Part shown: positions 5,313 through 41,849 of the stretch, piece by piece
Position numbering within the stretch: position 1 is the stretch's first letter
Layout of the letters: each line of letters opens with the position of its first letter
DNA from: Phenylobacterium sp.
GTDB taxonomy: Bacteria > Pseudomonadota > Alphaproteobacteria > Caulobacterales > Caulobacteraceae
NCBI RefSeq assembly: GCF_030698145.1
Contig: NZ_JAUYNW010000059.1
Coordinates: forward strand, 1 to 64,000
Direction of reading: 5' to 3'
DNA: 64,000 nt
The notes under the pieces: generated by a model
What the model was told of the DNA's origin: nothing
Database searches by the model: none
What the model saw: only the letters and a program-made list of their open reading frames with translations
Translations under genes and position numbers: made by a program

Positions 5313-5511
5313 GCGTTGGGACCGCCCGCGAATTCAATGCCTTGCCTGTAAATGTGGCCGAGATCGGCCACGAAAGATCAATGACTTACAGCGACCGTGT
5401 AAATGGCGAACCGGGTTCGCGGGCCGCCTAATCGGGCCGGCGCGCGACGAGAACATTTCGCGAACCTGTGACTAGACTTTCTTCGTTCTCTTGGCGTACC
5501 GCTTCGGTTCC
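5313..5511. other. Non-coding left prophage end with candidate integrase arm sites
   Basis: No supported gene. It holds an 8-bp-arm inverted repeat (GTGGCCGA at 5354-5361, TCGGCCAC at 5364-5371). It also has CTGTAAATG at 5346, inverted CTGTAAGT at 5384-5391, GTGTAAATG at 5397, and one copy of the 17-bp palindrome at 5405. The TGTAA words recur beside the right end and may be integrase arm-type sites. Confidence 0.45.
5405..5421. repeat. Dispersed 17-bp palindrome, copy 1
   Basis: GGCGAACCGGGTTCGCG matches GGCGAACC-S-GGTTCGCC at 16 of 17 positions. It lies upstream of the rightward left-end genes. Confidence 0.7.
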
Positions 5512-5856
5512 ATGGGCTCCAAGAACCCCGACCGCGTTCCGCTCTCAGCTCGCCGCCACCATGGCGAAACGGTCGGCCTGATGCGCGCCAACAAGTGGAA
5601 GATCCGCAGCGATTGCCCTCACTGCCGGGTTGCAGTGAATATCTCGCTCGACCCGATCATCTGCATGCGCGGGCCGCTCTACAGCCTTTGGGACCGCACG
5701 ATGAAATGCCCCAACGCCGCCTGCAGCGGACAGGCCCGCATCGCTGCAATCGCCCCCGGCATGCACAAGTACGAGGCGATGATCACCGCCAAGCCGTTCG
5801 ATGAACCGCCGGCCTGGCTGCGGGCCCGCGGCATTATCCTCGATCCCAAGGAATGA
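5512..5856 (+). CDS. Phage zinc-ribbon hypothetical protein
   Basis: A 114-residue protein with CPHC and, about 50 residues later, CPNAAC, a four-cysteine zinc-ribbon layout. The central part (NKWKIRSDC to IAPGMH) looks folded, and the C-terminus is GIILDPKE. The start is uncertain. ATG at 5512 is listed; TTG at 5491 and ATG at 5581 are also in frame and none has a good ribosome site. The next small gene overlaps it by ATGA. It is probably a non-essential accessory gene at the phage end. No function recognised. Confidence 0.6.
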   Translation: MGSKNPDRVPLSARRHHGETVGLMRANKWKIRSDCPHCRVAVNISLDPIICMRGPLYSLWDRTMKCPNAACSGQARIAAIAPGMHKYEAMITAKPFDEPPAWLRARGIILDPKE

Positions 5857-6029
5857 ACATGACCTTCCCCCGCCCCGATGGCCTCTACTGGATCCGGTTC
5901 TTTCCAGACGACACCGAGTGGCAAATCGCGCAGCTCGTCGGCGGCGAGTTCTTCCTGATCGGCGTGGCGGACGGCCAGCCTCGAGTCGCCGAAGTGGGAC
6001 CAAGGGTCGAGGCGGAACCCCCAAGCTAA
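5853..6029 (+). CDS. Hypothetical phage protein, 58 residues
   Basis: A 58-residue frame beginning MNMTFPRPDGLYWIRFF and ending VEAEPPS. Its ATG overlaps the stop of the zinc-ribbon gene, which supports coupled translation. The pattern GLYWIRF...WQIAQLVGGEFFLIG resembles small beta-rich phage proteins, but I do not recognise a named family. The next unit downstream is the hicAB promoter. Confidence 0.55.
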   Translation: MNMTFPRPDGLYWIRFFPDDTEWQIAQLVGGEFFLIGVADGQPRVAEVGPRVEAEPPS

Positions 6030-6064
6030 ATCCTGAAACGTGTGTATTTATCCCCATCGCTTAG

Positions 6065-6100
6065 TTGACATGCGGCTCGGGATAGTGTGTATATAAACAC
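6065..6100 (+). promoter_or_regulatory. hicAB promoter and candidate HicB operator
   Basis: TTGACA at 6065-6070 is followed by TATATA at 6090-6095 (19-bp spacer; TGTATA at 6088 gives 17). The near-palindrome GTGTATATAAACAC (6087-6100) covers the -10 and abuts the hicA ATG. A related half, GTGTATTTAT, lies at 6042. HicB-family antitoxins autorepress through such sites. Transcription from this -10 would begin at or very near the hicA ATG, so the mRNA may be leaderless. Confidence 0.6.
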
Positions 6101-6289: not shown

Positions 6290-6294
6290 AACAG

Positions 6295-6687: not shown

Positions 6688-6697
6688 GCCCAAACGC

Positions 6698-6728
6698 AAA
6701 AACGCCCCCGGCCATGGGCCGAGGGCGT
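6698..6728 (-). terminator. Intrinsic terminator of the leftward late operon
   Basis: A stem ACGCCC-C-CGGCC / GGCCG-A-GGGCGT (one mismatch, 3-base loop) is followed on the minus strand by TTTTTG. It sits 90 bp after the last late gene and also faces the hicB end, so it separates the two convergent units. Confidence 0.75.
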
Positions 6729-7798: not shown

Positions 7799-8121
7799 AG
7801 GGCGGTCCTCTCCCGCGCGGCGGCCTCGAGGGCGGCCGGCGATTGGCGCGAGTAGAACAGCACCTTGAAGAGCCCGATCGCGGCGACGGCGGCCAGGGCC
7901 ACGGCGAGGAAGCTCTCGCTCATGCTGGCGTGACGCTGGCCCTCGTAGAGGATCCAGGCCCGCAGCCCGGCCGCGCCGGCGAGCAGGTCGTAGACCAGGC
8001 ACTCCAGCACCGGGGCGTTGGGCATGAAGGTCAGGCGGGGCGACTGCAGGTAGGCGCGCGCCGCCGTGGCCATCGAGGCGATCGCCAGGGCGATGACGGT
8101 GATCCAATCGGTATCGGTCAT
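7783..8121 (-). CDS. Holin-like phage membrane protein
   Basis: A 112-residue protein with two to three hydrophobic stretches: WITVIALAIASMATAARAYL, LVYDLLAGAAGLRAWIL and FLAVALAAVAAIGLFKVLF. It overlaps the endolysin start and is itself overlapped by the preceding membrane gene, giving a compact lysis cassette. Size, topology and position fit a holin or antiholin. No named family is recognised. Confidence 0.7.
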   Translation of the reverse strand: MTDTDWITVIALAIASMATAARAYLQSPRLTFMPNAPVLECLVYDLLAGAAGLRAWILYEGQRHASMSESFLAVALAAVAAIGLFKVLFYSRQSPAALEAAARERTALWPRL

Positions 8122-8468
8122 CCCAGCTTCTCCGCTCGCTTGCCGGCGACCTTCATCGCCAGGTCGGCCGCCAGGGGGAGCGCGCGCCAGCCGATGACAG
8201 CGACGATCACCTTCACCCCGCCGATGGCCTCAGGGCCCGTCAGGTGCGCCAGGGAGGCGACCCAGGGGCCGAAGTAGATCCCGGCCAGGGTCCCGACGAT
8301 CCAGGCCGCCAAGGTCTCCACCAGGCCGCGTGTGATGTGGCCGGGGGGCCAGGGGCGCGGCGCGGCGAGGAACTGCACCGCGATCAGCAGGGCGGCCATG
8401 AGCCCCCCGGCCAGCGCGGGCGCGGCGTCGCGCCACCAGACCAGCCAGTCTGGATCTCGATAAGGCAT
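8118..8468 (-). CDS. Phage membrane protein, putative holin
   Basis: A 116-residue protein with three predicted membrane spans at about 15-35, 46-66 and 78-98, and a charged C-terminus (KVAGKRAEKLG). It is the first gene of the lysis cassette and overlaps the next gene by four bases. Two adjacent small membrane proteins before an endolysin suggest a holin/antiholin pair. A copy of the 17-bp palindrome lies 59 bp before its start. Which of the two is the pore former cannot be decided by eye. Confidence 0.7.
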   Translation of the reverse strand: MPYRDPDWLVWWRDAAPALAGGLMAALLIAVQFLAAPRPWPPGHITRGLVETLAAWIVGTLAGIYFGPWVASLAHLTGPEAIGGVKVIVAVIGWRALPLAADLAMKVAGKRAEKLG

Positions 8469-8526: not shown

Positions 8527-8543
8527 AGCGAACCGGGTTCGCC
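8527..8543. repeat. Dispersed 17-bp palindrome, copy 2
   Basis: AGCGAACCGGGTTCGCC, 16 of 17 positions. It is 59 bp before the holin-like gene (leftward) and 75 bp before the PEP-CTERM gene (rightward). Confidence 0.75.
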
Positions 8544-13465: not shown

Positions 13466-13482
13466 GGCGAACCCGGTTCGCC
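13466..13482. repeat. Dispersed 17-bp palindrome, copy 3 (perfect)
   Basis: Perfect GGCGAACC-C-GGTTCGCC in the 58-bp gap between two late genes, 34 bp before the start at 13432. Confidence 0.85.
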
Positions 13483-20299: not shown

Positions 20300-20979
20300 T
20301 CAGGTCGCGGTGCGGCGGCCTTCAGCGACAGCCATCACGACAGTCCACTTCCGCATGACCGCTTCGATTTCGTCGGCGGTTTGAGCGGGCGGCCCACGCG
20401 GGCCGCCCTGCAACTCAGACAGAGTCGGCGGATACTTCGCGTGCGGTAGATATGCGATGTGCCAGGCCAGCCATGCCCGGTCGTTCTGTTCGACCTCACG
20501 GGCCTCTGCCTTGCCGCGGACAGCCAGGGCAAAGAGCCGCGGGGTCTGGCGCCAGAACTCGGAGGGCGGACCGAGCCCTAGCCGACACCAGAGGACAAAG
20601 AGCTCTGCCCAGTCCCAGCCACGGCGGCGGTCCTCGCCGCCTTCCGAGGGCCCGGCGTGGCCTTGCCGGCCTCCGAAGCCGGGAAGGCCTTCACCAGCGC
20701 CTCGATCACCTTGGCCGCAGTCACCTCGACGCCAGCCCCATGGATCAGGAGGCCGACCGCCTTCAAATCGAGGTCGCCGTGGTGCTCATGCAGGCCGGCC
20801 CAGAGCAGGGTCCGAAGGAAGCCCAGGCGCATGCCGGGCCCGGCCAGCTCTGCGATCTCGCCGGCGCTGATGTTGAGTTTGTCTTCGAGCATACACAGCG
20901 TGTTGATGTCGAAGAGCAGCGTCATGGTCTCCTCCCCATTGGGGAAGGAGACCTCGCCGCGAACCGGGTTCGCCGACAT
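20300..20979 (-). CDS. Tail assembly chaperone, -1 frameshift extended product (gpGT-like)
   Basis: A second open frame, -1 relative to the chaperone gene and lacking a start codon, runs from the overlap to a TGA at 20300-20302. It encodes EGGEDRRRGWDWAELF...LFALAVRGKAEA...LAWHIAYLPHA. A slippery heptamer, G GGC CCT in the zero frame (20653 down to 20647), lies in the overlap exactly on codons 110-111. Slippage gives GGG CCC T and fuses 109 zero-frame residues to the second domain, 226 residues in all. Lambda gpG/gpGT and many siphophages use the same arrangement just before the tape measure. The extended form recruits the tape measure protein; the short form coats it. Confidence 0.82.
20578..20979 (-). 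CDS. Tail assembly chaperone, unshifted product (gpG-like)
   Basis: A 133-residue protein beginning SANPVRGEVSFPNGEETM and containing LLFDINTLCMLEDKLNISAGEIAEL, the pattern of the gene-transfer-agent gp10-like chaperones. These load on the tape measure protein during tail assembly. The ATG at 20979 overlaps the tail tube stop by one base. Codons 2-7 contain a copy of the 17-bp palindrome, so this regulatory-looking element lies inside the coding start. The last 24 residues differ from those of the frameshifted product. Confidence 0.85.
   Translation of the reverse strand: MSANPVRGEVSFPNGEETMTLLFDINTLCMLEDKLNISAGEIAELAGPGMRLGFLRTLLWAGLHEHHGDLDLKAVGLLIHGAGVEVTAAKVIEALVKAFPASEAGKATPGPRKAARTAAVAGTGQSSLSSGVG
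20647..20653 (-). promoter_or_regulatory. Slippery heptamer GGGCCCT for -1 ribosomal frameshifting
   Basis: Read on the minus strand as G GGC CCT in the chaperone frame, a perfect X XXY YYZ heptamer. It is inside the overlap of the two frames, directly before the tape measure gene. Confidence 0.78.
20958..20974. repeat. Dispersed 17-bp palindrome, copy 4
   Basis: CGCGAACCGGGTTCGCC, 16 of 17 positions, covering codons 2-7 of the tail chaperone gene. Confidence 0.75.
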
Positions 20980-23244: not shown

Positions 23245-23261
23245 GGCGAACCCGGTTCGCC
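23245..23261. repeat. Dispersed 17-bp palindrome, copy 5 (perfect)
   Basis: Perfect GGCGAACC-C-GGTTCGCC in a 74-bp gap between two head genes, 37 bp before the start at 23208. Confidence 0.85.
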
Positions 23262-26088: not shown

Positions 26089-27361
26089 CGTCGGATTCCT
26101 TTTCGGGATCGGCGGTCGGCGCCGGGAGCTTGAGTAGGGCCTTGCCCGCATCCTCGAGGGGGACGGTCGCGCCCTGGATGTAGAGGCGGTCGCCGCCTGC
26201 CTTGTCCGGCCGGTTCTCGGCGCGACGGGCCTCGTTCGGCGTGACCACGCCGCCCTGCACGCCCCGGGCCCAACCTTCCATTCGGGTCTTGAAGTCGCCG
26301 CGCAGCAGACCGTCGAGGTTGTGCTCGACGTAGAGTTCCTTGCGGGCGCGCCCGTAGAACTTTGCGTTGAACTCCTGGTCGAGATCCTGGACCCAGGTCC
26401 CGGCCACGTGCTTCACCACGTGGAGATCCTGCTGCTCGGAATTGGTGAACGTCCCGTGGGTCAGGTCCTGCAGGAAGATCGGCGGCAGGCCGAGGAACCG
26501 GGCGAACTGCTCGATCACAAACCTCTGGCCCTCGATGAGCTGGCTCTTCTCCGGATCGATCCCGATCGGCTTGAGCTCGGTTCCGTTCGGCATGAAGACG
26601 ACGTTCGAGCCGCCTTCGTTGGCCTTGCGCACGGCTGCGTCGGTGTCGGTCCTTGCCCGCGCCATGGCGCCGGGCGACCCGGCGGGCGCATGCAGGGCCA
26701 GGGGCGGCACGCCGCCATTGCGGAAAAACTTGGCGCCGTACTGCTCGAGCGCGATGGCCAGGCCGATCGTGTCGCGCATGCGCTTGATCGGATCGTAGTG
26801 GCTGAGCCCGTCAGGCTTCGGCAACCAGGTGATGTCGATCACCTCGCCGGCGGCGTAGATCTCCGGCTTCGCCGACCCGTCCCGGTACTGGTAGACGATC
26901 CGCCCGCTGGCCCGGACCTTCTTCGTCTTCTTCGTCTCGAGCGGGAAGATGTTCAGGGCCTTGCCGGCCTTGTTCTTCTCCACATAGGCCCGGCCGGCGC
27001 CCGTGGTCAGGGCCGAAATCATCAGCCCCTTTCGCCACTTGAACGACGTCAGCAGATCGTCGTTCACCGCGCCCGACAGCAGCTCGGACACACCGCCCTC
27101 GGTGACCCGCTCACGCCCCGCGCCGGTACGCTTGAACTCATGGACGGGCAGCGAGGCGAGCATCCCCGATAGGAAGTTGACACCGCACCAGAACGCCGGG
27201 ACCCCAAGCGCCGACTCAACCGTGATCGCGGGCCCGGCCGACGAGTTCCAGCCGTCCAACAGCGATTGCCAGGCCGCCGGATCCGACAGTGACATCGCCG
27301 GGTTTTCCAGTGACGAACGCGGTTCGCCACGAGACAGGTCGAGGCCGATTGAGAAGCGCAT
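26075..27361 (-). CDS. HK97-family portal protein
   Basis: A 428-residue portal protein, the usual length. Landmarks are ALGVPAFWCGVNFLSGMLASLP, the LPKPDGLSHYDPIKRMRDTIG region, and FLGLPPIFLQDLTHGTFTNSEQQ, then GVVTPNEARRAENRP near the C-terminus. Twelve copies form the DNA entry ring. Codons 12-17 contain a copy of the 17-bp palindrome; the alternative ATG 22 codons downstream (MSLSDPAAW) would leave it in the untranslated leader. Confidence 0.94.
   Translation of the reverse strand: MRFSIGLDLSRGEPRSSLENPAMSLSDPAAWQSLLDGWNSSAGPAITVESALGVPAFWCGVNFLSGMLASLPVHEFKRTGAGRERVTEGGVSELLSGAVNDDLLTSFKWRKGLMISALTTGAGRAYVEKNKAGKALNIFPLETKKTKKVRASGRIVYQYRDGSAKPEIYAAGEVIDITWLPKPDGLSHYDPIKRMRDTIGLAIALEQYGAKFFRNGGVPPLALHAPAGSPGAMARARTDTDAAVRKANEGGSNVVFMPNGTELKPIGIDPEKSQLIEGQRFVIEQFARFLGLPPIFLQDLTHGTFTNSEQQDLHVVKHVAGTWVQDLDQEFNAKFYGRARKELYVEHNLDGLLRGDFKTRMEGWARGVQGGVVTPNEARRAENRPDKAGGDRLYIQGATVPLEDAGKALLKLPAPTADPEKESDDAQV
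27312..27328. repeat. Dispersed 17-bp palindrome, copy 6 (degenerate)
   Basis: GACGAACGCGGTTCGCC, 15 of 17 positions, near the portal gene start. Confidence 0.55.
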
Positions 27362-27370: not shown

Positions 27371-29161
27371 TTAGTTCGCTGGTCCGGAAAGGCTGAAATT
27401 CTCGTCTTCCCAGGGGTTGGCCGGCTCGGCCTCTTCGCCCCTGCAGGCCAGACCGACCGCCATCACCGCGGCGACGATCCCGTCGATCTTCTCGCGGCTG
27501 CGCTTCTTCGCCGGCATGTAGTTCAGGTTCTCATCGAACCGGACCACGACGTTCTGCGCCATCCACCGCATGACCGGATTGCCGCCATGGTCCAGGAGAC
27601 CGGCGTAGACCAGGCGCTCGAAGTGCTTGCTCGGCTCGCCAAGGGTCTGGATCCCTTGGCGCATCTCGATCACCCGGCCGTCGAGCTGCGGGTTGTCGCG
27701 GAGAAGGTCGGTGTAGAGCTTCCGCGCGTTCCAGGAGTCGAAGCCGATGTCGACCACGTCGAAGTCGCGCAGGCCGTCCTCGATCGCGCGCTTGATGTAG
27801 TTCTGATCGACATAGTCGCCAGGCGTGGTCTCGAGAGCCCCGACCGCCTTGAACTGGTCATAGGGCACGCGGTCGCTGGCGACCCGGTCGCGAAGGGTGT
27901 CCTCTGGGACCCAGAAGCGGCAGAGCACCCGCCACTTGGCGTCATCGTCGGTCGGCGGAAAGACCCAGATCAGGGCTGTCACGTCGGTCGTGGACGAGAC
28001 GTCGAAGCCCCCGAAACAGGGCCGACCCTTGAGGGTCTCCGGATACTTCAGCCAGCCGTCCTTGGAGCCGGCGCAGGCGTCCCACTTCTTGACGTTGAAC
28101 CAACGCACCGCGGCGTCGATCCAGAGGTTGAGGTGGTAGCAGCAGAACCGCGCCAGGGCCCGGGGGTTGTCCTTCGCCTTGGCGGCCTGGGTCCGCAGGT
28201 ACGAGAGCGTGGGCGACAGGCCTATCGACGGGTTGGCCTTGCGCCAGGTCGCCTCGTCGAGCGGGTCGTCCTCAGGATCCGCCGCGAAGATGCAGACCAG
28301 GGTGTGGGGGTCGTCGATCCGCCCCTCGAGAATGCCCTGGCTTTCGCTCCAGCAGTCGTCGCCCGCGATGTTGCCCTTGGGCCCGGCCGTCGATCCGTAG
28401 AGGAACACCGGCTGCAGGCGCGCGCCAGTCCCTTCCTCGAGCGTCTCGGCGATCACCCGCGAGCGCCATTCGTGCATCTCGTCGCCGATGACGACGGTCG
28501 GCGAGGCGCCGTGTTTCCCGTCCTCGGCCCCGGTCAGCATCTCGAAAGTCGAGAGCAGATCCTTCACGTAGAACGACCGCTTGTACGGCAGCACCCCGGC
28601 CGACCAGTCGGGGTTGAGCGCGATCATTGCCTTCATCTTGCGAAGGACGATCCGCGCCTGCTTCTCGTCGCGGGCGAAGCAGTAGCCCTCGCCGTCGATC
28701 ACCCCGTCGACCAGGAAGAACAGCAGGCCCAGGGCGGCGAGGAACTCGCTCTTCCCGTTTTTCCGCGGGACCCACAGCATGAGTCGGCGGAACACGCGGA
28801 CCTGGTAGATGACGGGTTCGTGGGTCGCCGCGTCGAGCTGCTCGTCGGGGCGTTGCCATCCGACCATCAGCCGGACGATGATCTCCTGCCAGAGGTTGAG
28901 CTTGAACGGCAGGCCGGCGAAGCGGTCCTGGGTCAGGTGCATCAGGTGCGGCCACTGGCGCACCATCTCGTCGGCGAGGGCGTAGTCGAACCAAGCGCCC
29001 GGGACCTGCGCCGCCCGGCGCCAGCGATTCCTAGCCCACTCGTAGGACGGGTCGTCGGCCGTCGACTCCAGCCAGGCCGGCAGCGGCCAGATCGACTCCG
29101 GAGCCCCCGCCGCGAGCGCCGCGGCCGAGGCCTCGCCGCTCAAGGGAAGGGAGCCGTCCAT
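27371..29161 (-). CDS. Phage terminase large subunit
   Basis: A 596-residue packaging motor. The ATPase Walker A is WVPRKNGKS (about 130-138) and the Walker B is VVIGDEMHEW (Asp227, Glu228). The C-terminal nuclease begins at GGFDVSSTTDVTAL (first acidic residue of the RNase-H-like site), with DIGFDSWNA and KIDGIVAAVMA later. With the adjacent small subunit and HNH gene it would cut and package DNA. It starts immediately after the small-subunit stop. Confidence 0.94.
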   Translation of the reverse strand: MDGSLPLSGEASAAALAAGAPESIWPLPAWLESTADDPSYEWARNRWRRAAQVPGAWFDYALADEMVRQWPHLMHLTQDRFAGLPFKLNLWQEIIVRLMVGWQRPDEQLDAATHEPVIYQVRVFRRLMLWVPRKNGKSEFLAALGLLFFLVDGVIDGEGYCFARDEKQARIVLRKMKAMIALNPDWSAGVLPYKRSFYVKDLLSTFEMLTGAEDGKHGASPTVVIGDEMHEWRSRVIAETLEEGTGARLQPVFLYGSTAGPKGNIAGDDCWSESQGILEGRIDDPHTLVCIFAADPEDDPLDEATWRKANPSIGLSPTLSYLRTQAAKAKDNPRALARFCCYHLNLWIDAAVRWFNVKKWDACAGSKDGWLKYPETLKGRPCFGGFDVSSTTDVTALIWVFPPTDDDAKWRVLCRFWVPEDTLRDRVASDRVPYDQFKAVGALETTPGDYVDQNYIKRAIEDGLRDFDVVDIGFDSWNARKLYTDLLRDNPQLDGRVIEMRQGIQTLGEPSKHFERLVYAGLLDHGGNPVMRWMAQNVVVRFDENLNYMPAKKRSREKIDGIVAAVMAVGLACRGEEAEPANPWEDENFSLSGPAN

Positions 29162-31441: not shown

Positions 31442-32445
31442 GACGTTCCCCCAAGCACCCGTGCGACGGGCGGCGTCGGCTGACCCAGGGTCGCGCCGAA
31501 ACTTCGAATGATGTCCTCGACAGTGCGGAGCTGCTCAGCGGCATGCCCCGACCACGGCGCGATCACCTGGGTCGCGTCGTTCCAGGGCGAGCGGTCGAGG
31601 TACGAGACGGCGAACCCCTCGCCCTTCGCCGCAACGATCTTCGCCCTGAGCCCGGCCGGTCCCGCGAACCCGGTTCGCACGGTCTCGGCCGTGCCGGTGC
31701 TGGGATCCTCGCCAAGCCAATAGCGCCAGCGCTCGCCGCTCAGCCATCGCTGCAGGGACGGGCACACGCCCTTGCGGACGTCGCCGTCCTCGGCGGTGAA
31801 CCGCCGGATGGCCGCTAGCAGCCGTTCGGGCTCGACCAGGGTGCAGGCCCAGGCCCAGGCCGACCGGGCCAACGGGACGTCTGTTCGCTTCTGGCCGAGC
31901 TCGGGAAACGCCGAGATCGCTTCATCGAAACCTTCGTCGCCCGGCTCGCGCGCGCCCGTCTTGGGTTTAACTAAGGGTTCTACTAAGGGTTCTTCATGCT
32001 GCAATTTGCGGCATGGTTTTCCCTCATTTTGCAGCATGGTTTCGCTCAAATCGCCGCATGGACCATGCTGCAAATTGCAGCATGGATCGGCGGCCGGATC
32101 GGACCCTTCCGGGGCCGGCTGGACACCCGTCCGATCGGCCTTCAGACGCTCGCGCGTCCCATCCTCGCGATGCAAAACGTACTCGTAGACGCCGAGCTTT
32201 CCGTCCTTGCGGACCTTCCTGCGGCGGCTGATGAAGCCCTCGTCGAACAGCCATTGCAGGTGGCGCTCGACCGTAGCGCGGCTCAGGTGGGTCCGCTTCA
32301 TGATCCGCTCGACGGCCGGATAGCAGGCCCAATCCTCCCCCGAATGATCGTTCCCATGATCGCCGAGGACGACGAGCACGAAGAGCGCGCCGCTAGGCAC
32401 GTACGCCGGCGCATCCCAGGCCCAATCCATGGCCTTGTTACTCAC
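31438..32445 (-). CDS. Phage replication initiator-like protein (lambda O-type) with internal origin
   Basis: A 335-residue protein with an N-terminal winged helix (about 20-100: YVPSGALFVLVVLGDHG, CYPAVERIMKRTHLSRATVERHL, LFDEGFISRRRKVR). A linker (about 115-165) encoded by the iteron/AT-rich DNA at 31970-32085 follows, then a C-terminal domain (LARSAWAWACTLVEPERLL, SLQRWLSGERWRYWL). The layout of origin DNA in the linker is that of lambda O. No helicase or loader gene is evident, so host DnaB/DnaC-type factors would be used. Start is GTG at 32445, overlapping the upstream stop. A degenerate 17-bp palindrome lies within (31663). Confidence 0.72.
   Translation of the reverse strand: MSNKAMDWAWDAPAYVPSGALFVLVVLGDHGNDHSGEDWACYPAVERIMKRTHLSRATVERHLQWLFDEGFISRRRKVRKDGKLGVYEYVLHREDGTRERLKADRTGVQPAPEGSDPAADPCCNLQHGPCGDLSETMLQNEGKPCRKLQHEEPLVEPLVKPKTGAREPGDEGFDEAISAFPELGQKRTDVPLARSAWAWACTLVEPERLLAAIRRFTAEDGDVRKGVCPSLQRWLSGERWRYWLGEDPSTGTAETVRTGFAGPAGLRAKIVAAKGEGFAVSYLDRSPWNDATQVIAPWSGHAAEQLRTVEDIIRSFGATLGQPTPPVARVLGGTS
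31663..31679. repeat. Dispersed 17-bp palindrome, copy 7 (degenerate)
   Basis: CGCGAACCCGGTTCGCA, 15 of 17 positions, inside the O-like coding region; may be chance. Confidence 0.45.
31970..32085. other. Candidate phage replication origin: iterons plus tandem AT-richer repeats
   Basis: Inside the O-like gene. A perfect tandem 12-mer ACTAAGGGTTCT occupies 31970-31981 and 31982-31993. It is followed by four direct repeats around (A/T)TTGC(A/G)GCATGG, with GCATGG at 32011, 32034, 32056 and 32080 (22-24 bp spacing). The patch is clearly less GC-rich than its surroundings. Lambda-type origins have the same plan of iterons and an easily melted stretch within the initiator gene. Confidence 0.65.
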
Positions 32446-32691: not shown

Positions 32692-33273
32692 CTACTTCCG
32701 GATCATGCTGTCGCCGAACCGCGCGACCCAGGTCCGCAGGTAGTCGGTGTCAGGCGAGAGCTTGCCGTCGCACACGTCCTGGACGGCCGCCTGCATGCTG
32801 GTGATCGCCGCGGCGTCATCGGGCGCGACGATCTGCGCCGCGAAGTTGGCCGGCCACAGCAGGGACGGCAGGGACCGCCCACAAACGGGCCCGTCGCGCG
32901 GCTCGCTCGGATCGAGCGCGAAGACCCAGAACTGATGACTCGCCCCGTCCCGACACAGCTCGGCCGGCTGGCCTTGCAGAGGCCGCAGATGCACGAGGGT
33001 GAGGATGAAGCTATGCCAGATCGGGTGCGCCCAGGGCGCTTCCATGATCCAGGAGGCGATCCCGCTATCGGTCTCGGGCGTTCGACCGCCGTGCCGCTGC
33101 AGCGCGCCGACGTCGAGACGCCAGGCCCGCCCGACATGGCCGCGCAGGTCGGGATCGCGCGTGACGACGTCCTCGACCTTGGTTGGCTCCAATTCGCCGG
33201 TTAGGGCCCGCAAGCCCCCGGCGCCAGTTCCCAGGATCACCGCCACATTCGGCGGCCGATCGGCGTCTTCCAT
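32692..33273 (-). CDS. Hypothetical phage protein, 193 residues
   Basis: A 193-residue protein starting MEDADRPPNVAVILGTGAG. HPIWHSFILTLVHLRPLQG and DGASHQFWVFALDPSEP are its most distinctive parts, and the C-terminus is WVARFGDSMIRK. The ATG at 33273 overlaps the methyltransferase-like stop (TGATG); a GTG one codon earlier is possible. I do not recognise a family. Its position suggests a role in DNA metabolism. Confidence 0.6.
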   Translation of the reverse strand: MEDADRPPNVAVILGTGAGGLRALTGELEPTKVEDVVTRDPDLRGHVGRAWRLDVGALQRHGGRTPETDSGIASWIMEAPWAHPIWHSFILTLVHLRPLQGQPAELCRDGASHQFWVFALDPSEPRDGPVCGRSLPSLLWPANFAAQIVAPDDAAAITSMQAAVQDVCDGKLSPDTDYLRTWVARFGDSMIRK

Positions 33274-34001
33274 CACAGGTCTCCGAACAGGGTTGAGGGT
33301 TCCGCAAAGCCAAAGCGCCGGGCGTCGTCGGGGCGGCTCAGCCGCGCCTTGGTCCCAGGCGGGATCGGTCTGACGATGGGATCGGGGCCGAGGCCCAGCT
33401 CGGCGGCCACCTCCGGCCGCGTGAACACGAACCAGGCATAGGCGGTCGCCGTGGACGCCCTGGGGTCCCAGCGGCCGAGCACCATCGGCACGCGCTCGAA
33501 GAACGGCGCGTAGACGCTCAGGCGCGTCTCGGAGCCGAAGAACAGCTCATAGCGCCCGGCGCTCTCGAGCAGCGCCTGGCGCGCCAGGATCGCCACCCCG
33601 CGCTTGGCGCGCTGCAGGCCCAGCCGCACGAACTCGGCGGCCAGCTTGAAGGGCGGATTGGTGATGTCCCAGTCGGCCGCCGGCCAATCGCCCTGGTCGC
33701 GGGCGGTGTAGTCAATGACCCGGTCCTGACCGTCCCAGCCGTGGTCATAGATGTCGGAGGCGGCGACGGTGTCGAAGGAGTCCTTCAGACCGAACGCCAT
33801 GTGCCCTTTGCCGCAGGCGCCATCCTTGGCGGTCTTCGCCGTGGGATCGAGCCACTTGACCAGCTCGCCGCCGGACCGGGCGGCCCAGGGCGGTGTCGGG
33901 AAGAACTCGAGCCGCCGGAAATGGCGCAGCAGCGCGCTATCGGCCTCGACCTCGGCTGGGGCGTGCGCGGCCATGACGGCCCCAGCTCCGGAGGCCCTCA
34001 T
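33273..34001 (-). CDS. Phage DNA N6-adenine methyltransferase-like protein
   Basis: A 242-residue protein. FFPTPPWAARSGGELVKWL and ACGKGHMAFGLKD form the usual beginning of phage class I methyltransferase-like proteins. DWDITNPPFKLAAEF carries the NPPF catalytic motif of N6-adenine/N4-cytosine methyltransferases. The AdoMet loop is ACGKGHM instead of DPFxGxG, a variant seen in phage members. It may methylate phage DNA or act on a modified base. The ATG at 34001 overlaps the MazG-like stop (ATGA). Confidence 0.75.
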   Translation of the reverse strand: MRASGAGAVMAAHAPAEVEADSALLRHFRRLEFFPTPPWAARSGGELVKWLDPTAKTAKDGACGKGHMAFGLKDSFDTVAASDIYDHGWDGQDRVIDYTARDQGDWPAADWDITNPPFKLAAEFVRLGLQRAKRGVAILARQALLESAGRYELFFGSETRLSVYAPFFERVPMVLGRWDPRASTATAYAWFVFTRPEVAAELGLGPDPIVRPIPPGTKARLSRPDDARRFGFAEPSTLFGDL

Positions 34002-36376: not shown

Positions 36377-36380
36377 GGCT

Positions 36381-36397
36381 GGCGAACCGGGTTCGTC
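36381..36397. repeat. Dispersed 17-bp palindrome, copy 8
   Basis: GGCGAACCGGGTTCGTC, 16 of 17 positions, five bases before an ATG on the minus strand. Confidence 0.7.
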
Positions 36398-36498
36398 GCG
36401 CCCGGGCGGGGGGACCGGCCCAGCCCGGGCGCGAGCACGCCGCCGACCGCATGTGGTCGGCCGGCGGCGTGGGGGGTTGATGACGGGTTCGCTTGCCC

Positions 36499-36515
36499 GG
36501 CGAACCCGGCTCGCG
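36499..36515. repeat. Dispersed 17-bp palindrome, copy 9 (degenerate)
   Basis: GGCGAACCCGGCTCGCG, 15 of 17 positions, in the gap before the small gene at 36632. Confidence 0.6.
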
Positions 36516-36631
36516 CGGCGCGGCCTGTCAAAAGGTCGCGGCGCAACGGACAGTTGCGACGCGACTCTTTGCAATTCGAGGATTCTACTTGGGGTCCAGG
36601 GCGACAATTCTGGCCGCTGAGGGGAGTGATG

Positions 36632-36856
36632 ATGTTGAATGAGGCTTCGGCGAGTAGGCGCCGAACCGTGCGTGCGGTGCTTTCGGTGCTTGGGCGCAAG
36701 AAGCGCCAGACCGTGACGAACACGAACCTTGGTGCGGCCGCAGCCTGGGACGGCCTAGCCGTCGCATGCCGCTTGATCGCCACCGGCTGCGACCTGGCCG
36801 CGGACCACGCCGCGTTCATGGCCGACCAACTCCGAGGGCCGCCGGCGCCTCACTAG
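36632..36856 (+). CDS. Hypothetical phage protein, 74 residues
   Basis: A 74-residue protein: basic N-terminus (SRRRTVRAVLSVLGRKKRQ), then LGAAAAWDGLAVACRLIATGCDLAADHAAF split into two helices. GGGGAG lies five bases before the ATG at 36632; an ATG at 36629 is also in frame. It converges with, and overlaps by 41 bp, the Cro-like gene. No family recognised. Confidence 0.5.
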   Translation: MLNEASASRRRTVRAVLSVLGRKKRQTVTNTNLGAAAAWDGLAVACRLIATGCDLAADHAAFMADQLRGPPAPH

Positions 36857-37130
36857 GCGAGACCGGCACATATCGGACACCGCAGGCCCGATACCAGTCC
36901 TCCGGCTGCACCTGCCCGGCGCTGATTAGCGTGATCTTGTGGATCATGTCGGCGTGCGGGATCCGGCGCGCCGGGTCGTCGTAGGGCTTACGCCAGCGAC
37001 CGACACTCATCGGATGCGCGCCGAGCAATTCGGCGCAGGCGATGTTGTCCAGCCCATGGTCGAACATCCAGCGATCGAACTTGATCCGCTGGAGGGGCGA
37101 GTGCGCGGCGAGGGCGACGGGGTCGGGCAT
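36816..37130 (-). CDS. Cro-like HTH regulator
   Basis: A 104-residue protein divergent from the CI-like repressor. The N-terminal part carries an HTH: FDRWMFDHGLDNIACAELLGAHPMSVGRWRKP (helix-turn-helix about 26-47, split here). The remainder (HADMIHKITLISAGQVQPEDWYRA) is typical of small phage Cro/YdaS-like regulators. It would repress from the shared region 37131-37260 and open the lytic path. Orientation points it toward the leftward early genes. Confidence 0.75.
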   Translation of the reverse strand: MPDPVALAAHSPLQRIKFDRWMFDHGLDNIACAELLGAHPMSVGRWRKPYDDPARRIPHADMIHKITLISAGQVQPEDWYRACGVRYVPVSPSEAPAALGVGRP

Positions 37131-37260
37131 TGCTGCGTCCGATATTTCGGGTCAGCGGGGATATCGAAACTGATTTGGTGCAGCTTGCAACTGTTTGGTT
37201 TATGACCATGCGCCTATGCAGGCGCTCGCTCTCGCGGCTGACCGAGTCCAGCCTCGGTTC
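37131..37260. promoter_or_regulatory. Lysis-lysogeny switch region between cro-like and cI-like genes
   Basis: 130 bp, locally AT-richer. CGATATTTCG (37139-37148) and GATATCGAAA (37160-37169) are related words in opposite orientation that could be repressor half-sites. TTGCAA lies on the minus strand and TTGGTG...TTTATG on the plus strand as weak promoter elements. The 17-bp palindrome is absent here. Confidence 0.45.
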
Positions 37261-38016
37261 ATGTCGCAACCGAACGATGATGAGATTGAACGCCGGCTCC
37301 TCGGGAGAGCCTTGGCGCGCCTAAGGACCGAGGCCGGGATCAGCCAGGCCAAGGCCGGGGAGCTCTTCGGCGTCAGTGGACAGAACTGGGCGAAGTACGA
37401 GAACGGTCGCGCACCGTCGATCGAACAGAAATCCGTGCAGCAACGCCTCGCGAAGGCGGTCGGTAGCGATCTCGAAGGTCTCATGCTCGCCAAGGCGCGC
37501 CTCACCGGCGACGCCCCACCTCAACGACCCGGGTTCGGGGTCGCCGAGCGCGGACTATGGGTGGCGTCCCGTAGCACCGACGCCCCGTCCCTGCCGATCA
37601 CTGAGCGCGTCCAGGCCGGCGCGTGGCTGTTCAATGGTGACGGCCCCGACGTCGTCGGCCGCGCCTTCCCCCTGGGTCGAGATCCGAGGTTCGCCCACGC
37701 CGACCAATGGCTGGCCGAGGTTGTGGATGATGCAGCCGAGGGTCTCTCGATCTTCGACGGCGACCTGGTGCATTGCGTGGCGGCCGACCAGATCGGCTAT
37801 TACCCAAAGACCGGCGACATCGTGCTGGTCGAGCGCCGGCGCGTCGACGGCCAGGAGCGCGAACGCACGCTGCGCCAGGTCGAGATCTTCGACGGCGGCG
37901 TTCGGCTATGGATGAGGACGGAGAACAAGCGCCACAAGGGCTCCGAGCTTCTCCGGACGGCGGACGAGGGGCCATTCATCCGCGCCCTCGTCGTGGCCCA
38001 GGTCCGCCGGTTCTAG
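37261..38016 (+). CDS. CI-like prophage repressor, S24-like domain lacking the Ser/Lys dyad
   Basis: A 251-residue repressor. Residues 15-75 are an XRE helix-turn-helix (LRTEAGISQAKAGELFGVSG, NWAKYENGR). Residues 110-251 resemble the LexA/CI S24 dimerisation domain (VQAGAW, LSIFDGDLV, KTGDIVLVERR). Where S24 peptidases have GDSM, this protein has DDAA (Ala158). Where they have the catalytic Lys, it has Arg205 in TLRQVE. Self-cleavage is therefore doubtful and induction may not use RecA. ATG 37261 chosen; ATG 37216 is also in frame. Confidence 0.87.
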   Translation: MSQPNDDEIERRLLGRALARLRTEAGISQAKAGELFGVSGQNWAKYENGRAPSIEQKSVQQRLAKAVGSDLEGLMLAKARLTGDAPPQRPGFGVAERGLWVASRSTDAPSLPITERVQAGAWLFNGDGPDVVGRAFPLGRDPRFAHADQWLAEVVDDAAEGLSIFDGDLVHCVAADQIGYYPKTGDIVLVERRRVDGQERERTLRQVEIFDGGVRLWMRTENKRHKGSELLRTADEGPFIRALVVAQVRRF

Positions 38017-38501
38017 CCGCCAAGCAGATCGTACGGCAGGTCCAACCGGACACCGAAATGGCCCTCGGATCTGCCGGTCTTCCAGCCGCCAACGACTAGT
38101 GCGCGACACTCGATTGCCGCGGACCCGCCTGAAGACCGCGCACGCTGCCTCGCCAGCGCCAGGGCATCGGCTCGCGACAGGTGGCCGACCTTTTGACCCT
38201 TGATCCAGACGCCCTGGGCATTGGCGTCATAGGCATTGTCCGGCTCCGCGATGATGCGGGCCGTACAGGCGTGTTCAACGCTGTCTTCCGTCTTGCCGCC
38301 GACGATCGAGCCCAGCACGCCTTGATAGTAGCCCTCGCCGACCACATCGACGGCGAACATCCCGCCGTCGCTCACGCGCAGCACGCCATCGACCGCGCCA
38401 TCGAGCTTGCTTGGCTCGACATGCGAGAGCGCCGCCCCGACGCCAAGGGCGAACAGGCCCGCGAGGGCGAGCAAGATCAGCAGCACAATGATGACGGTCA
38501 T
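38013..38501 (-). CDS. Membrane-anchored HIRAN-domain protein
   Basis: A 162-residue protein. Residues 2-28 are a hydrophobic anchor (VIIVLLILLALAGLFALGVG). Residues 50-150 resemble a HIRAN domain: GEGYYQGVLGSIVGG, ARIIAEPDNAYDANAQGVWI, KVGHLSRADALALARQ. HIRAN domains bind DNA ends or damaged DNA in helicases and nucleases; a membrane-tethered phage form is unusual. It converges on the CI-like gene with a four-base overlap. It may be expressed in the lysogen. Confidence 0.75.
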   Translation of the reverse strand: MTVIIVLLILLALAGLFALGVGAALSHVEPSKLDGAVDGVLRVSDGGMFAVDVVGEGYYQGVLGSIVGGKTEDSVEHACTARIIAEPDNAYDANAQGVWIKGQKVGHLSRADALALARQRARSSGGSAAIECRALVVGGWKTGRSEGHFGVRLDLPYDLLGG

Positions 38502-38591
38502 TCTCGCTCCCCCTCACCGCAAGGTCGCAGCGCCGAAGCCCTCACGCGAGCGACGGGATGAAGCGCGTTTGAAACCGCAGTTGATCGCGTA

Positions 38592-38620
38592 TGGTTTCAT
38601 TCCGGTTGACACTGAAACCA
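38592..38620 (+). promoter_or_regulatory. Inverted repeat around a -35 box before the rightward early operon
   Basis: TGGTTTCA (38592-38599) and TGAAACCA (38613-38620) are perfect 8-bp arms with a 13-base spacer. TTGACA (38606-38611) lies in the spacer. No good -10 is visible at 17 bp. The site precedes the first gene of the rightward operon by about 100 bp and is a candidate operator. Confidence 0.5.
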
Positions 38621-38723
38621 AACAGGTGTGCCAGTAACCACACCCCGGCGGCCAACGTGACGATGGGCGTCCGTAGATCAGTCTTGGAAGGACGGATTTC
38701 GGACCGCCGGGGCGAGGTCTCAG

Positions 38724-39074
38724 ATGGATACCCCGCGAACCGCGTTCGCCGCCGCCCGCCCTGAGCGGGTCGCCATTCACCCGCTGATCGCCCAGCGGAT
38801 CGTCCGAATCCAGGGCCGCAGCGACCGGGTCGCCCTCACCCACCAGGGCGAGACCATGACCTTCGACGATCCGCAGGATCTTCGCGAGACCATCCTGCGC
38901 GTCGAGGCCGAGGATCGCCGGGCCGCGGCGCTGAAGGCGTGGGACGCCCTGCCCTGGTACGCCCGCCTGCAGTTCGACATCGCCGGCGCCCGCCTCGAGT
39001 ATTGGGGCGCGGGCCTGAGCGGGGCGCTCGTCGGCCTGCTCTTCACCGCCGCGCGGATCGGGCTCTTCCAATGA
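38724..39074 (+). CDS. Hypothetical phage protein with C-terminal membrane segment
   Basis: A 116-residue protein, first in the rightward operon. VRIQGRSDRVALTHQGETMTF is beta-rich, ALKAWDALPWYARLQFDIAG is helical, and LSGALVGLLFTAARIGLF is a C-terminal hydrophobic end. GAGG lies before the ATG. Codons 4-9 contain a degenerate 17-bp palindrome. The stop overlaps the next ATG. Not recognised. Confidence 0.65.
   Translation: MDTPRTAFAAARPERVAIHPLIAQRIVRIQGRSDRVALTHQGETMTFDDPQDLRETILRVEAEDRRAAALKAWDALPWYARLQFDIAGARLEYWGAGLSGALVGLLFTAARIGLFQ
38734..38750. repeat. Dispersed 17-bp palindrome, copy 10 (degenerate)
   Basis: CGCGAACCGCGTTCGCC, 15 of 17 positions, at codons 4-9 of the first rightward early gene. 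Confidence 0.6.
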
Positions 39075-39397
39075 GCCCCGCCCTCGCCCCGCACCACGCG
39101 CCGCGCCGCCAGGACAAGCCGCACCGCTGGACCCTGATCCTCCCCGGCCACGCCGGCCTCGTGCCCTACCCCCATGTTGACGAGGCCGCCCGCCGGATCG
39201 TCCGCCTCGCACCGGGCATGGTGCTGCAGCTCACCCGCTGGACCTGCACCTATCCCGGCTACGATACCTTCGAGGCCTTCAAGATCGAGGGGCTCGTCCC
39301 GCTCAGCGATACCCGCGCCTATGTCGGCGCCGTCGTCGCCGGCCCCGCCGATCTCGGCGAGTTGCGCGCCGCCATCGCCAGGGCGGCGGCGGAATGA
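39071..39397 (+). CDS. Hypothetical phage protein, 108 residues
   Basis: A 108-residue protein with HRWTLILPGHAGLVPYPHVDEAARRI (split: a beta strand then a helix) and LTRWTCTYPGYDTFEAFKIEGL. It overlaps both neighbours by four bases in a tightly packed operon. No family recognised. Confidence 0.6.
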   Translation: MSPALAPHHAPRRQDKPHRWTLILPGHAGLVPYPHVDEAARRIVRLAPGMVLQLTRWTCTYPGYDTFEAFKIEGLVPLSDTRAYVGAVVAGPADLGELRAAIARAAAE

Positions 39398-39645
39398 GCG
39401 GCCCGTCCTTCGATCCCTTCATGCTTCACGGCCTCAGCTACACCGAGGCCTTGCAGCAAATGCGTCTCACGGACTGCGCAGTCCGCCGCGACCATTGGTG
39501 CGCGCCCGTCGTACGCCTCGTGGACGGAAGGCCGATGCTCGACGACGAGGGCGACCTGTCGCCGCTCCTGCTCTTGGGCGATGACCGCCGCGCCCGCGAT
39601 TGGGGGATGATCCCTAATCCAGCCACCGATGGCGTCGCCTCGTGA
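39394..39645 (+). CDS. DUF2829 / Tad2-like protein (candidate anti-Thoeris)
   Basis: An 83-residue protein whose core SYTEALQQMRLTDCAVRRDHW and ending RARDWGMI follow the DUF2829 plan (s-FxeAL...G..vaR..W ... DWxxx; the first is given in two parts of the family scheme). Phage Tad2 proteins of this family sequester the cyclic ADP-ribose signal of Thoeris defence. Length and both Trp motifs fit. Function is inferred from family resemblance only. It overlaps neighbours on both sides in the rightward early operon. Confidence 0.6.
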   Translation: MSGPSFDPFMLHGLSYTEALQQMRLTDCAVRRDHWCAPVVRLVDGRPMLDDEGDLSPLLLLGDDRRARDWGMIPNPATDGVAS

Positions 39646-39779
39646 TCACCTGGCTACGCCGCCGCCGGCGTCCCCGCGCCAGCCTTTCCCCCATCCTCGT
39701 CGCGCTGCGCGACATCTGTCTCGTCGCCCTCGGGATCGCGGTTCTCCGCGCTGTCGGCGCGATCTTCACTGGAGCCTGA
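39642..39779 (+). CDS. Small membrane protein, 45 residues
   Basis: A GTG start overlapping the previous stop (GTGA) opens a 45-codon frame. It has a strongly basic N-terminus (MITWLRRRRRPRASLSP) and one hydrophobic helix (ILVALRDICLVALGIAVL). It ends three bases before the ParB-like start. Overlap with the operon supports translation. No family recognised. Confidence 0.5.
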   Translation: MITWLRRRRRPRASLSPILVALRDICLVALGIAVLRAVGAIFTGA

Positions 39780-39782
39780 CCC

Positions 39783-41849
39783 ATGACTGAGCTGACCCCC
39801 ATGGCGATCTCGGCCGCCCCCCTGCTCCGCGCCATCGCGGCGGGCGGCGACCTTTCGCCCAAGGCCCTGGCCGAGGCTAGCGGCCGCAAGTCGAACAACA
39901 TCGCCCGAGATCTCGCCCGCGTCGCCGAACAGGGCTGGGTCACCCGCGAACCTGGCTCGCCGCCGGCCTTGACCGACGCCGGCCAGGGGATCCTCGACAC
40001 CCTGGACAGCAAGGGCCCCGTCGCGCCCGCTCCGGACGGTGAAGGCTTCGCCCATGTCCCCCTCGATCTGATCGACCGAGACCCGACCCTGAACCCGCGC
40101 GAGATCTTCGACGACGCCGAGCTCGAGGCCCTGGCCAGTTCGATCCGCGACAAGGGCGTCGCCCAACCGATCCTGTTGCGCCTCGGCCTCGAGGCTGGGC
40201 GCTTCCGCATCGTCGCCGGCGAGCGTCGCTTCCGCGCCAGCCAGAAGGCCGATCGCCCGACGATCCCCGCCATGATCCGCGACCTGGACGACGCCCAGGC
40301 GCTTGAGATCGCGACGATCGAGAACATTCAGCGGGTGAACCTCTCCCCGCTCGAGGAGGCCAAGGCCTTCAAGAAGATCATCGCCAACCGCATGGCCGCC
40401 GACCCGGCCCTCGAGCTGAAGGACGCGAAGGCCGCAATCGCCGACGCGGTGCGCAAGACGGTTCGCTATGTCGAACAGCGCATGGACCTGCTTGAGCTCC
40501 CGCCGATCCTGCAGAAGCGCCTCGAGCTGGACCCCGACGACGGCGCCTATCTCAACCTCAAGGAGGCCCGCCGCGAGGTCCAGAGCATGCGGTCGAGGGA
40601 GCGGGAGGCGAAAGCCAAAATCCTGCCCGCCGACGAGCTTCTCGCCCTGGCCGAGTTCTATGACGCCGTCGAGCAGTTCGCCGAGACGCTGCCCGGCTGG
40701 TGGTACGGCCAACAGCTCCCGCTCGCCGTGGGTTATCGCGCGCTCGAGGACAACGAGCCGCTGGCCTATCTCGTGAAGCGCAACGCTCTTTACGTCAGCC
40801 GCGGCTGGAAGGCTGACGCCCGGCATTTTGTTCGGGAGGGCTATGGCTACTCGAAACAGGAGGTCGCGCGCCAGCTTCCCGGCTTCAACGGCAAGACCCG
40901 AGCGGCGACGCTGCACGCCCTGCGCGTGAAGGTGATTGGCCAACCCGAGGCCGAGAAGATCGACAAGACCTGGTCCTTCGCCGGCCAGCGCGGCGAATAC
41001 GCGACGTGGGCGTTCAACGAGCCATTCCGCTCGACCCCTGACCCGGCGCTGGAAGAGGCCGCCGAAGCGTATCGCCTGCGCGAACAGGAAGAGTCCCAGC
41101 GCCAATTCAACCGCGCCGCGGAAGAGCAGCGGCAACAGGAAGAGCAAGCCGCCCACAAGGCCAGGGTCGCGCGCGAGCTCGGCCCGTTCGGGAAGGACTT
41201 CCTTGCCGCCGTCCGCGCCCTCGAAGCCGGTGCGGCCGACATGGCGCCCGACGAATTCTGGTCGGCGTTCAACCAGGTGCAGACCGACTTCGAGTGCGAG
41301 GGACCCTACAGCCTGCAGCTCTCCGCTGACGGCAAGGACGCCGTGCTGGTCGACGGCCAGGGCCGGCTCGCCAGTGGGTACGGGCCATGCCTCGAGGCGC
41401 GCCGGCGGCTGATCGCAGTGGCGCTCAACTACGCCGCCGGCCGGCCGCCGACGAGCGGCCCGGACCTCGACACGCCGTGGTCGCGCCCGGAGGAACCCGA
41501 GCCCGAGATCACGCGCGAGCGGTTTGTCGACATGGTCGCCGGCCACCTGGAAGACGACATGGGAGTCGGCCCTGTGGTCGCCGGCGAGATGGCGGAAAAG
41601 GGCCTCGCCGCCGTTCTGGCCGACGAAGGTATCGAGTTCGGCGATCCCATGTTCGAATGGGACCACGACAATGCCATGTCCCTGGCGAACGACATTCGCC
41701 TCGAGGACTACGGCCAGCAGCCGGCCGAGGACGAGGACGAGGACGCCACAGCCGAGGCAGAGGCCGAGAAAGACACCCCCGAATACCTGACCCGCCTCGC
41801 CGGCGGCGGCGCGGCGGCCGAGCCCGAGCTCGAGCGGGAGGAAGGTTGA
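39783..41849 (+). CDS. Large ParB-family protein with N-terminal winged helix
   Basis: A 688-residue protein. Residues 5-75 resemble a winged helix (LLRAIAAGGDLSPKALAEAS, RVAEQGWVTRE). Residues 90-190 are a ParB/Spo0J CTP-binding domain: PLDLI, LASSIRDKGVAQPILLR, GERRFRA (146-152) and ENIQR (180-184). Residues 195-245 look like the ParB HTH. The remaining 440 residues are charged, partly coiled coil (EQEESQRQFNRAAEEQRQQE), and end in a very acidic stretch. ParB relatives such as KorB bind dispersed palindromes to repress or partition. No ParA gene is nearby. Overlap with the next gene (TGATG). Confidence 0.85.
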   Translation: MTELTPMAISAAPLLRAIAAGGDLSPKALAEASGRKSNNIARDLARVAEQGWVTREPGSPPALTDAGQGILDTLDSKGPVAPAPDGEGFAHVPLDLIDRDPTLNPREIFDDAELEALASSIRDKGVAQPILLRLGLEAGRFRIVAGERRFRASQKADRPTIPAMIRDLDDAQALEIATIENIQRVNLSPLEEAKAFKKIIANRMAADPALELKDAKAAIADAVRKTVRYVEQRMDLLELPPILQKRLELDPDDGAYLNLKEARREVQSMRSREREAKAKILPADELLALAEFYDAVEQFAETLPGWWYGQQLPLAVGYRALEDNEPLAYLVKRNALYVSRGWKADARHFVREGYGYSKQEVARQLPGFNGKTRAATLHALRVKVIGQPEAEKIDKTWSFAGQRGEYATWAFNEPFRSTPDPALEEAAEAYRLREQEESQRQFNRAAEEQRQQEEQAAHKARVARELGPFGKDFLAAVRALEAGAADMAPDEFWSAFNQVQTDFECEGPYSLQLSADGKDAVLVDGQGRLASGYGPCLEARRRLIAVALNYAAGRPPTSGPDLDTPWSRPEEPEPEITRERFVDMVAGHLEDDMGVGPVVAGEMAEKGLAAVLADEGIEFGDPMFEWDHDNAMSLANDIRLEDYGQQPAEDEDEDATAEAEAEKDTPEYLTRLAGGGAAAEPELEREEG
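39945..39961. repeat. Dispersed 17-bp palindrome, copy 11 (degenerate, uncertain)
   Basis: CGCGAACCTGGCTCGCC: 14 of 17 if the central base is held to S. It lies at codons 55-60 of the ParB-like gene and may be chance. Confidence 0.35.

Follow-up and report, generated by a model that had tools for sequence, protein, structure and literature searches.

KorB of plasmid RK2 is a clamp of the ParB family with several specific sites, described as acting at 12 operators and as silencing at a distance (PMC11790492). This study concerns a 17-bp palindrome, GGCGAACCSGGTTCGCC, dispersed through a siphovirus-type prophage of Phenylobacterium sp. in a stretch of 64,000 nucleotides (contig NZ_JAUYNW010000059.1, positions 1 to 64,000; this whole stretch is hereafter called the window), and the ParB-family protein encoded by the same prophage. 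Judging from sequence comparisons, the palindrome is very likely a parS-like site for the specific binding and loading of the phage's own ParB, which would act without a phage ParA. The first-pass annotation of the window had likened the palindrome to KorB operators, and as a mechanism the comparison is apt, as KorB is among both the sequence and the structure matches of the window ParB. KorB differs in that it uses another operator, of 16 bp, belongs to a plasmid rather than a phage and works with KorA, and the available text of its description mentions no even spacing (PMC11790492).

Chromosomal ParABS systems offer a second comparison. ParB of Caulobacter (6t1f) shares with the window ParB the ParB_N domain, the helix-turn-helix (HTH) and the CTPase boxes, whereas the window prophage is distinguished by the lack of a ParA and by sites spread along the whole phage. 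The chromosomal parS sequence also differs from the phage palindrome. SopB of phage N15 is a phage ParB-type protein with several dispersed inverted centromere repeats; the N15 prophage, however, is a linear plasmid, encodes a ParA-type protein of its own and has few sites. Set beside these systems, the phage ParB-palindrome array would be a variation on the ParB-parS theme.

Dispersed sites are also described in mycobacteriophages. The stoperators of Cluster A phages are described as asymmetric and oriented with transcription (PMC4351075); identity with them, which the spread of the sites had brought to mind in the first-pass annotation, was rejected on symmetry, the phage sites being palindromic and mostly within genes. 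Corndog-type phages (Cluster O) are reported to carry 34 copies of a 17-bp repeat, TGTTCGGNNNCCGAACA, described in 2015 as of unknown function, and a parB-like gene product, gp90; the binder was expected by the authors to be dimeric, and the repeats to do something else than regulate transcription initiation (PMC4351075). Like the sites in the window, these are dispersed 17-bp palindromes accompanied by a parB-like protein, about a third of them within genes, but according to the same account the phages are not obviously temperate and the 34 copies are denser toward one end. More recently, a 2025 survey of orphan ParBs reported that ParB-fold proteins without a ParA occur widely and that many phage ParB fusions are enriched in prophage regions; its available text names no DNA targets for the phage members (PMC12704722). 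In the literature searched, we found no paper with this word, or with such arrays or DNA targets for phage ParBs of this class.

Association of the palindrome with phage-encoded ParB

At up to three mismatches, the palindrome has 11 matches in the window, all within the prophage (two perfect, four with one mismatch, four with two and one with three), while dinucleotide shuffles gave a mean of 0.85 matches and at most 5, none of 100 reaching 11. At the same threshold it is absent from the 24.6 kb of window flanks outside the prophage. The site coordinates given by the first-pass annotation are thereby reproduced, and its by-eye impression that the flanking chromosome holds none is confirmed. 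Throughout the host assembly (4.01 Mb in 147 contigs), 10 of the 11 matches at up to two mismatches fall in the prophage and the reversed pattern occurs once; by our own arithmetic, motif density differs about 1000-fold between the prophage and the rest of the assembly.

Among 299 genomes of the same family, that of the window included, at least five matches at one mismatch or fewer were found in only four, namely the window's own, G064, G077 and G086, the remaining genomes having 0 to 2. In the latter three, the motif clusters lie in ParB-encoding prophages (one further G077 match is on another contig) whose terminases are 58-60% identical to that of the window at the protein level, and whose ParBs are 27-28% identical.

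Viral contigs were scanned for GCGAACCSGGTTCGC; at least 91 match, and 26 among the matches listed have two or more exact copies in the stretches scanned. Forty-nine of the 91 listed contigs were searched whole (G651 to position 40000 of 40336 bases), comprising all 26 multi-match contigs and 23 contigs of at least 27 kb that have a single match. At up to two mismatches, 27 of these carry 4-11 sites and 22 carry fewer; the reversed pattern is absent from all 49. Among the matches listed, a profile built from four ParB proteins detects a ParB relative in 22 contigs of the 27 that have four or more sites, and in none of the 22 that have fewer; the four-site cut was picked after the counts were known, and at five sites 19 of 22 contigs have a ParB. 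When contigs are collapsed into DNA-relatedness groups, ParB is found in 21 of 23, the other two groups being contigs under 19 kb. When the proteins of 30 motif-bearing contigs were clustered, no family was shared more widely than ParB, which occurs in 24 of them and, by profile, in G605 as well; portal and terminase each occur in 22, methyltransferase in 13 and CI in 8. In seven ParB-bearing contigs (G605, G618, G619, G622, G627, G646, G652) there is no window-type terminase or portal; the word therefore follows ParB across otherwise different phages. A scan of genome contigs with the window ParB gave 7 loci whose likeness is limited to the ParB domain, and among 50,697 phage records none had a relative that matched either ParB query over 80% of its length.

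Two other candidate binders, a host factor and the CI-like repressor of the prophage, had been named beside ParB in the first-pass annotation, and neither is supported by these distributions. The motif phages share a high G+C content (61-70%), which suggests similar hosts and would suit a host nucleoid or regulatory protein that binds a word evolved by phages to recruit it. Such a binder is nevertheless highly improbable: the host assembly holds one match outside the prophage, the motif clusters of the three other motif-rich family genomes lie in ParB-encoding prophages and the low-copy viral contigs are without ParB, so that the word tracks a protein carried by phages.

Operators of lambda CI are 17 bp long and of odd length. 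The palindrome is likewise an odd-length 17-bp dyad, and two of its copies (36381 and 36499) lie near the immunity region, as would be expected if the CI-like repressor bound it at dispersed operators. Against this stands the lack of conservation of the repressor's DNA-binding domain along with the word: by tblastn, the match in G064 and G086 is confined to residues 124-246 and does not reach the HTH, and there is no match in G077, yet all three carry the word, and the CI family occurs in a third as many motif contigs as ParB. A strongly diverged CI could escape BLAST searches, but the chance that CI is the binder appears very small.

A role for a ParB-fold protein in directing DNA modification or packaging to the sites, like the one put forward for ParB-Tls in other phages (PMC6536676), would be in keeping with the methyltransferase gene that lies between terminase and parB, though separated from parB by 5.8 kb and the immunity region. 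This role is improbable as well: the methyltransferase family is found in just 13 of the 30 motif contigs, the window ParB has an HTH, and domain searches found no methyltransferase fusion to it.

ParB architecture, recognition helix and a second palindrome

The window ParB belongs clearly to its family (PF02195, E-value 7.8e-26; TIGR00180, 115.6 bits against a cut-off of 58.45). A ParB_N CTPase fold is followed by a central HTH, for which the Pfam HTH_ParB score is below cut-off (16.1 vs 22.6 bits), and the CTP-binding (cytidine triphosphate-binding) boxes GERR and ENIQR (consensus ENxQR) are present. Its best sequence match in the PDB is Caulobacter ParB 6t1f (1.5e-28), KorB matching at an E-value of 1.8e-11, and the predicted structure of residues 1-306 (mean predicted local distance difference test score 83, predicted template modelling score 0.54) matches the folds of Noc, ParB and KorB (8qa8, 8qa9). 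By genomics, specific palindromic sites appear to track this protein, as expected of a ParB-parS pair. The HTH is the common binding candidate because the N-terminal winged helix is missing in several motif phages (G608, G619, G620, G622 and G637), and the winged helix was rejected as the common binder. A conserved C-terminal ParB motif was also sought and is present in only some of the proteins.

By analogy with ParB, Noc and KorB, a ParB dimer would dock on the palindrome through the central HTH, bind CTP, shut as a clamp and slide away from the site; with about ten sites a few kilobases apart, such clamps could cover the entire phage genome.

A second dispersed palindrome, GTGCANANNTNTGCAC, occurs in phages with another ParB. 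VarioGold (L259) has five copies in the 29.7 kb scanned and Aval (L260) five, two of them with one mismatch, against 0-1 in shuffles; both phages match the window in having parB flanked by the CI-like gene and the integrase gene. For the viral survey the form GTGCANACGTNTGCAC was used, and 36 of the 46 listed contigs of 30 kb or more were examined; ParB_N is present in 28 of these 36 among the matches listed, and the reversed pattern matches in three of them (at 1, 1 and 2 places).

The presumed recognition helix distinguishes the two groups. Directly after its conserved V/I, 24 of 25 ParBs of phages with the first palindrome (motif 1) carry Q or E, 28 of 30 ParBs from contigs with the second (motif 2) carry Y or F, and all nine alignable ParBs, of 10, from host genomes carry A; L451 (motif 2), misaligned at the helix, was kept in these counts and dropped from the tree, as was the host row L037, gapped there. 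In a tree of ParB_N alone, the window ParB, G604 and G607 are sister to host-genome ParBs (support 0.92), apart from most motif-1 ParBs, yet this clade has the motif-1 helix; helix and word are therefore linked more closely to each other than to the ancestry of the CTPase domain. Taken with the co-occurrence described above, this covariation strongly supports the ParB-like protein, also proposed in the first-pass annotation, as the probable binder. Since each of the two palindromes can now be paired with a ParB group, and one helix residue varies with the pairing, binding and specificity become directly testable.

Several observations weigh against this assignment. Five of the 27 motif-rich contigs (G606, G609, G615, G628, G642) have no ParB match. 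G606 is 100% identical to G077 along its whole length and stops before the position of the G077 parB, G615 and G628 are shorter than 19 kb, and G609, G615, G628 and G642 are probably cut contigs or fragments. PF02195 alone matches 21 of 28 contigs, the exceptions being the same five with G610 and G616, and the G610 ParB was seen by the ParB profile only; PF02195 was run on one of the 22 low-copy contigs and the ParB profile on all 22. Differences in the recognition helix are partly differences between clades, and G619 has G in place of Q/E, though its sites are mostly perfect. Of 25 motif-1 ParBs, 8 depart from the strict ENxQR box, most of them at a single residue but G610 and G605 entirely; the CTP switch may therefore not be general. 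For motif 2, copy number separates ParB_N carriers less cleanly (20 of 24 contigs with at least four sites, 8 of 12 with fewer), and no ParB_N match was found in the motif-2-rich contigs G653, G663, G669 and G674. Finally, among the 28 motif contigs searched for ParA (PF13614), G619 is positive, the other 27 having no match.

As for G653 (76.8 kb), eleven motif-2 palindromes at up to one mismatch are spread along this contig. Gordonia phage Ewald and Arthrobacter phage Maja, which have ParB-like nuclease-domain proteins, and the scanned parts of L022, L023 and L024 showed no clear repeated 6- or 7-base dyad, an absence that is weak evidence because VarioGold, whose array was found by a looser pattern, stood out little in the same scan.

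Spacing, conservation and possible roles of the sites

The sites are evenly spaced. Over 23 relatedness groups, which exclude near-identical phages yet still share protein families, the mean coefficient of variation of the gaps is 0.455, compared with 0.780 (standard deviation 0.054) in simulations, none of 5000 being as even. For the window prophage, excision as a circle would leave about 4.8 kb between the sites on either side of the attachment junction, a gap within the range of the others (118 bp to 7.5 kb). This regularity had not been remarked in the first-pass annotation.

A second tendency concerns gene starts. Among 206 sites at up to two mismatches in 30 contigs, near-identical phages included, 151 lie within predicted genes and 55 between them (27% vs 8.6% at random). 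Site centres fall at -60 to +40 of a predicted start in 79 cases (38%, against 13.7% for random positions) and at -60 to -10 in 56 (6.4% expected), with none in the last 10 bp before a start. The first-pass annotation had placed the sites mostly at gene starts, which is fair for this prophage (about 6 of 11 by our own count) and holds only in part across the 30 contigs. Gene starts are favoured by the sites, but their spread over the whole genome is the stronger rule. The parB gene itself is close to a site: in 21 phages, the median distance from its start to the nearest one is 357 bp, whereas random genes give 1135 bp (p about 0.0025).

Sites also persist between related phages. All seven sites aligned between G086 and G077, each within a predicted gene, remain sites at up to three mismatches; identity over the inner 15 bases of these sites is 96%, compared with 76% for the aligned DNA. 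Kept sites number 6 of 6 for G086-G609, 8 of 8 for G086-G064, 6 of 7 for G077-G609, 2 of 2 for G605-G642 and G627-G611, 1 of 2 for G620-G637, and 1 of 1 each for G617-G648, G623-G611 and G607-G604. Between the window and G607, both aligned sites are kept, with 90% identity inside sites vs 76% overall, and none aligned between the window and G604. These pairs are partly non-independent, and protein constraint may contribute inside genes.

The even spacing favours coverage of the whole genome, and the bias toward gene starts leaves room for silencing of the KorB kind. If ParB binds, the chances are about evenly balanced that the layout lets its clamps organise or coat the whole phage genome. A genome-wide nucleoprotein coat that would organise and mark phage DNA, as prophage or as replicating circle, appears somewhat likelier than KorB-like silencing, and both may coexist. 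If the whole-genome role suggested by the even spacing is real, it would be a new use of ParB clamps.

That ParB binds mainly to silence transcription, with clamps or bound ParB blocking RNA polymerase over lytic operons in the manner of KorB or Cluster A stoperators, is a tenable if less probable account. The enrichment between genes and upstream of starts speaks for it, as do the position of site 38734 at the head of the presumed parB operon and the precedent of KorB, a sliding clamp described as silencing at a distance (PMC11790492). Even spacing is, however, unexpected for operators tied to promoters; most sites lie within genes, the word is symmetric, and the intergenic bias could reflect codon avoidance alone. 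Moreover, parB of VarioGold sits with genes for single-stranded-DNA-binding and nucleotide-kinase proteins, a setting that looks more like an early lytic operon. A sigma-70 promoter scan of positions 36200-40200 found none, a result that is uninformative for this host.

Partition proper is unlikely for most of these phages, unless a host ParA serves, because no ParA was found in 27 of 28 motif contigs or in the window prophage; the prophages of G064, G077 and G086 likewise gave no match to PF13614, and the window ParB has no ParA ATPase beside it such as a ParABS system would have. In G619, an adjoining ParA-ParB pair (42796-44635) stands in a contig otherwise like the ParA-less ones, and the end of a perfect motif-1 site is 25 bp short of the start predicted for parA. 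The suggestion of the first-pass annotation that the palindrome may act as a phage parS gains from this contig; partition proper is doubtful, with ParA in one contig of 28.

More tentatively, in temperate phages of many lineages, ParA-less ParB might be loaded as CTP clamps from evenly spaced, genome-wide site arrays and coat the entire phage genome. The coat would be a kind of phage chromatin, specific in sequence, by which self DNA is marked, organised or protected; each group of phages would have its own palindrome-ParB pair, the Corndog repeats belonging to a third.

Prophage features and Corndog-type repeats

A perfect 47-bp direct repeat marks the two ends of the prophage, which is about 39.4 kb long and encloses all 11 palindromes (Table 1). 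Its insertion target is tRNA-Gln(TTG), and ARAGORN still detects a tRNA at the right end. The phage is a siphovirus and presumably temperate: beside head genes of the HK97 type, a tape measure and an endolysin, it encodes a replication protein, the CI-like repressor, the ParB-like protein and a tyrosine integrase. A HIRAN-domain gene on the reverse strand (38013-38501), with a relative in G064, separates the CI-like gene from the presumed parB operon.

Table 1. Coordinates of palindrome copies and selected prophage features in the window.
Feature	Position	Strand	Remarks
attL, 47-bp direct repeat	5266..5312		left prophage end; identical to 44660-44706
Palindrome, 1 mismatch	5405..5421		
Palindrome, 1 mismatch	8527..8543		about 60 bp upstream of leftward gene 8118-8468
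Palindrome, perfect	13466..13482		between genes 13491-14438 and 13118-13432
Palindrome, 1 mismatch	20958..20974		on visual inspection, shortly before a leftward ATG that has a ribosome-binding site; counted as coding from the gene caller's earlier start
Palindrome, perfect	23245..23261		upstream of leftward gene 22702-23208
Palindrome, 2 mismatches	27312..27328		within first codons of portal gene
Terminase gene	27371..29161		
Palindrome, 2 mismatches	31663..31679		within replication-protein gene; remains a site (3 mismatches) in aligned G607 DNA
DNA methyltransferase gene	33273..33974		between terminase and parB genes; 5.8 kb and immunity region before parB
Palindrome, 1 mismatch	36381..36397		
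Palindrome, 2 mismatches	36499..36515		
CI-like repressor (HTH_31)	37312..38016	+	
Palindrome, 2 mismatches	38734..38750		codon 4 of first rightward gene before parB; remains a site (3 mismatches) in G607
ParB-family protein, 688 residues	39783..41849	+	proposed palindrome binder
ParB N-terminal MarR-like winged helix, residues 10-57	39810..39953	+	MarR_2, E-value 3.4e-5, under Pfam cut-off
Palindrome, 3 mismatches	39945..39961		inside parB near codon 55; G604, G607 and G086 have sites 167-170 bp from parB start
ParB_N CTPase-fold domain, residues 90-183	40050..40331	+	GERR and ENIQR boxes
ParB HTH, presumed recognition helix, residues 227-238	40461..40496	+	..RYVEQR..
Tyrosine integrase	43089..44198	+	PF00589 above cut-off in longer frame 42984-44198
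attR, 47-bp direct repeat	44660..44706		mostly within tRNA-Gln(TTG) 44663-44736

The array in the window may bear on the Corndog-type 17-bp repeats, for which a link to ParB is a candidate suggested by sequence comparison, and it makes the phage's own ParB a candidate binder for repeats that were described as of unknown function (PMC4351075). One contig of 72.7 kb (G689) has 42 copies of the TGTTCGGNNNCCGAACA type at up to one mismatch together with ParB_N, and ParB_N occurs in one of seven multi-copy and one of seven single-copy Corndog-type contigs. Six others (G690-G695, 9-37 kb), in which no ParB_N was found, have 3-8 Corndog-type palindromes at spacings of about 0.2-1.3 kb in one region. 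G698 has one Corndog-type palindrome only, whose start is 82 bp past the end of a ParB_N match (42162-42508), perhaps still in the same reading frame, like a parS beside parB.

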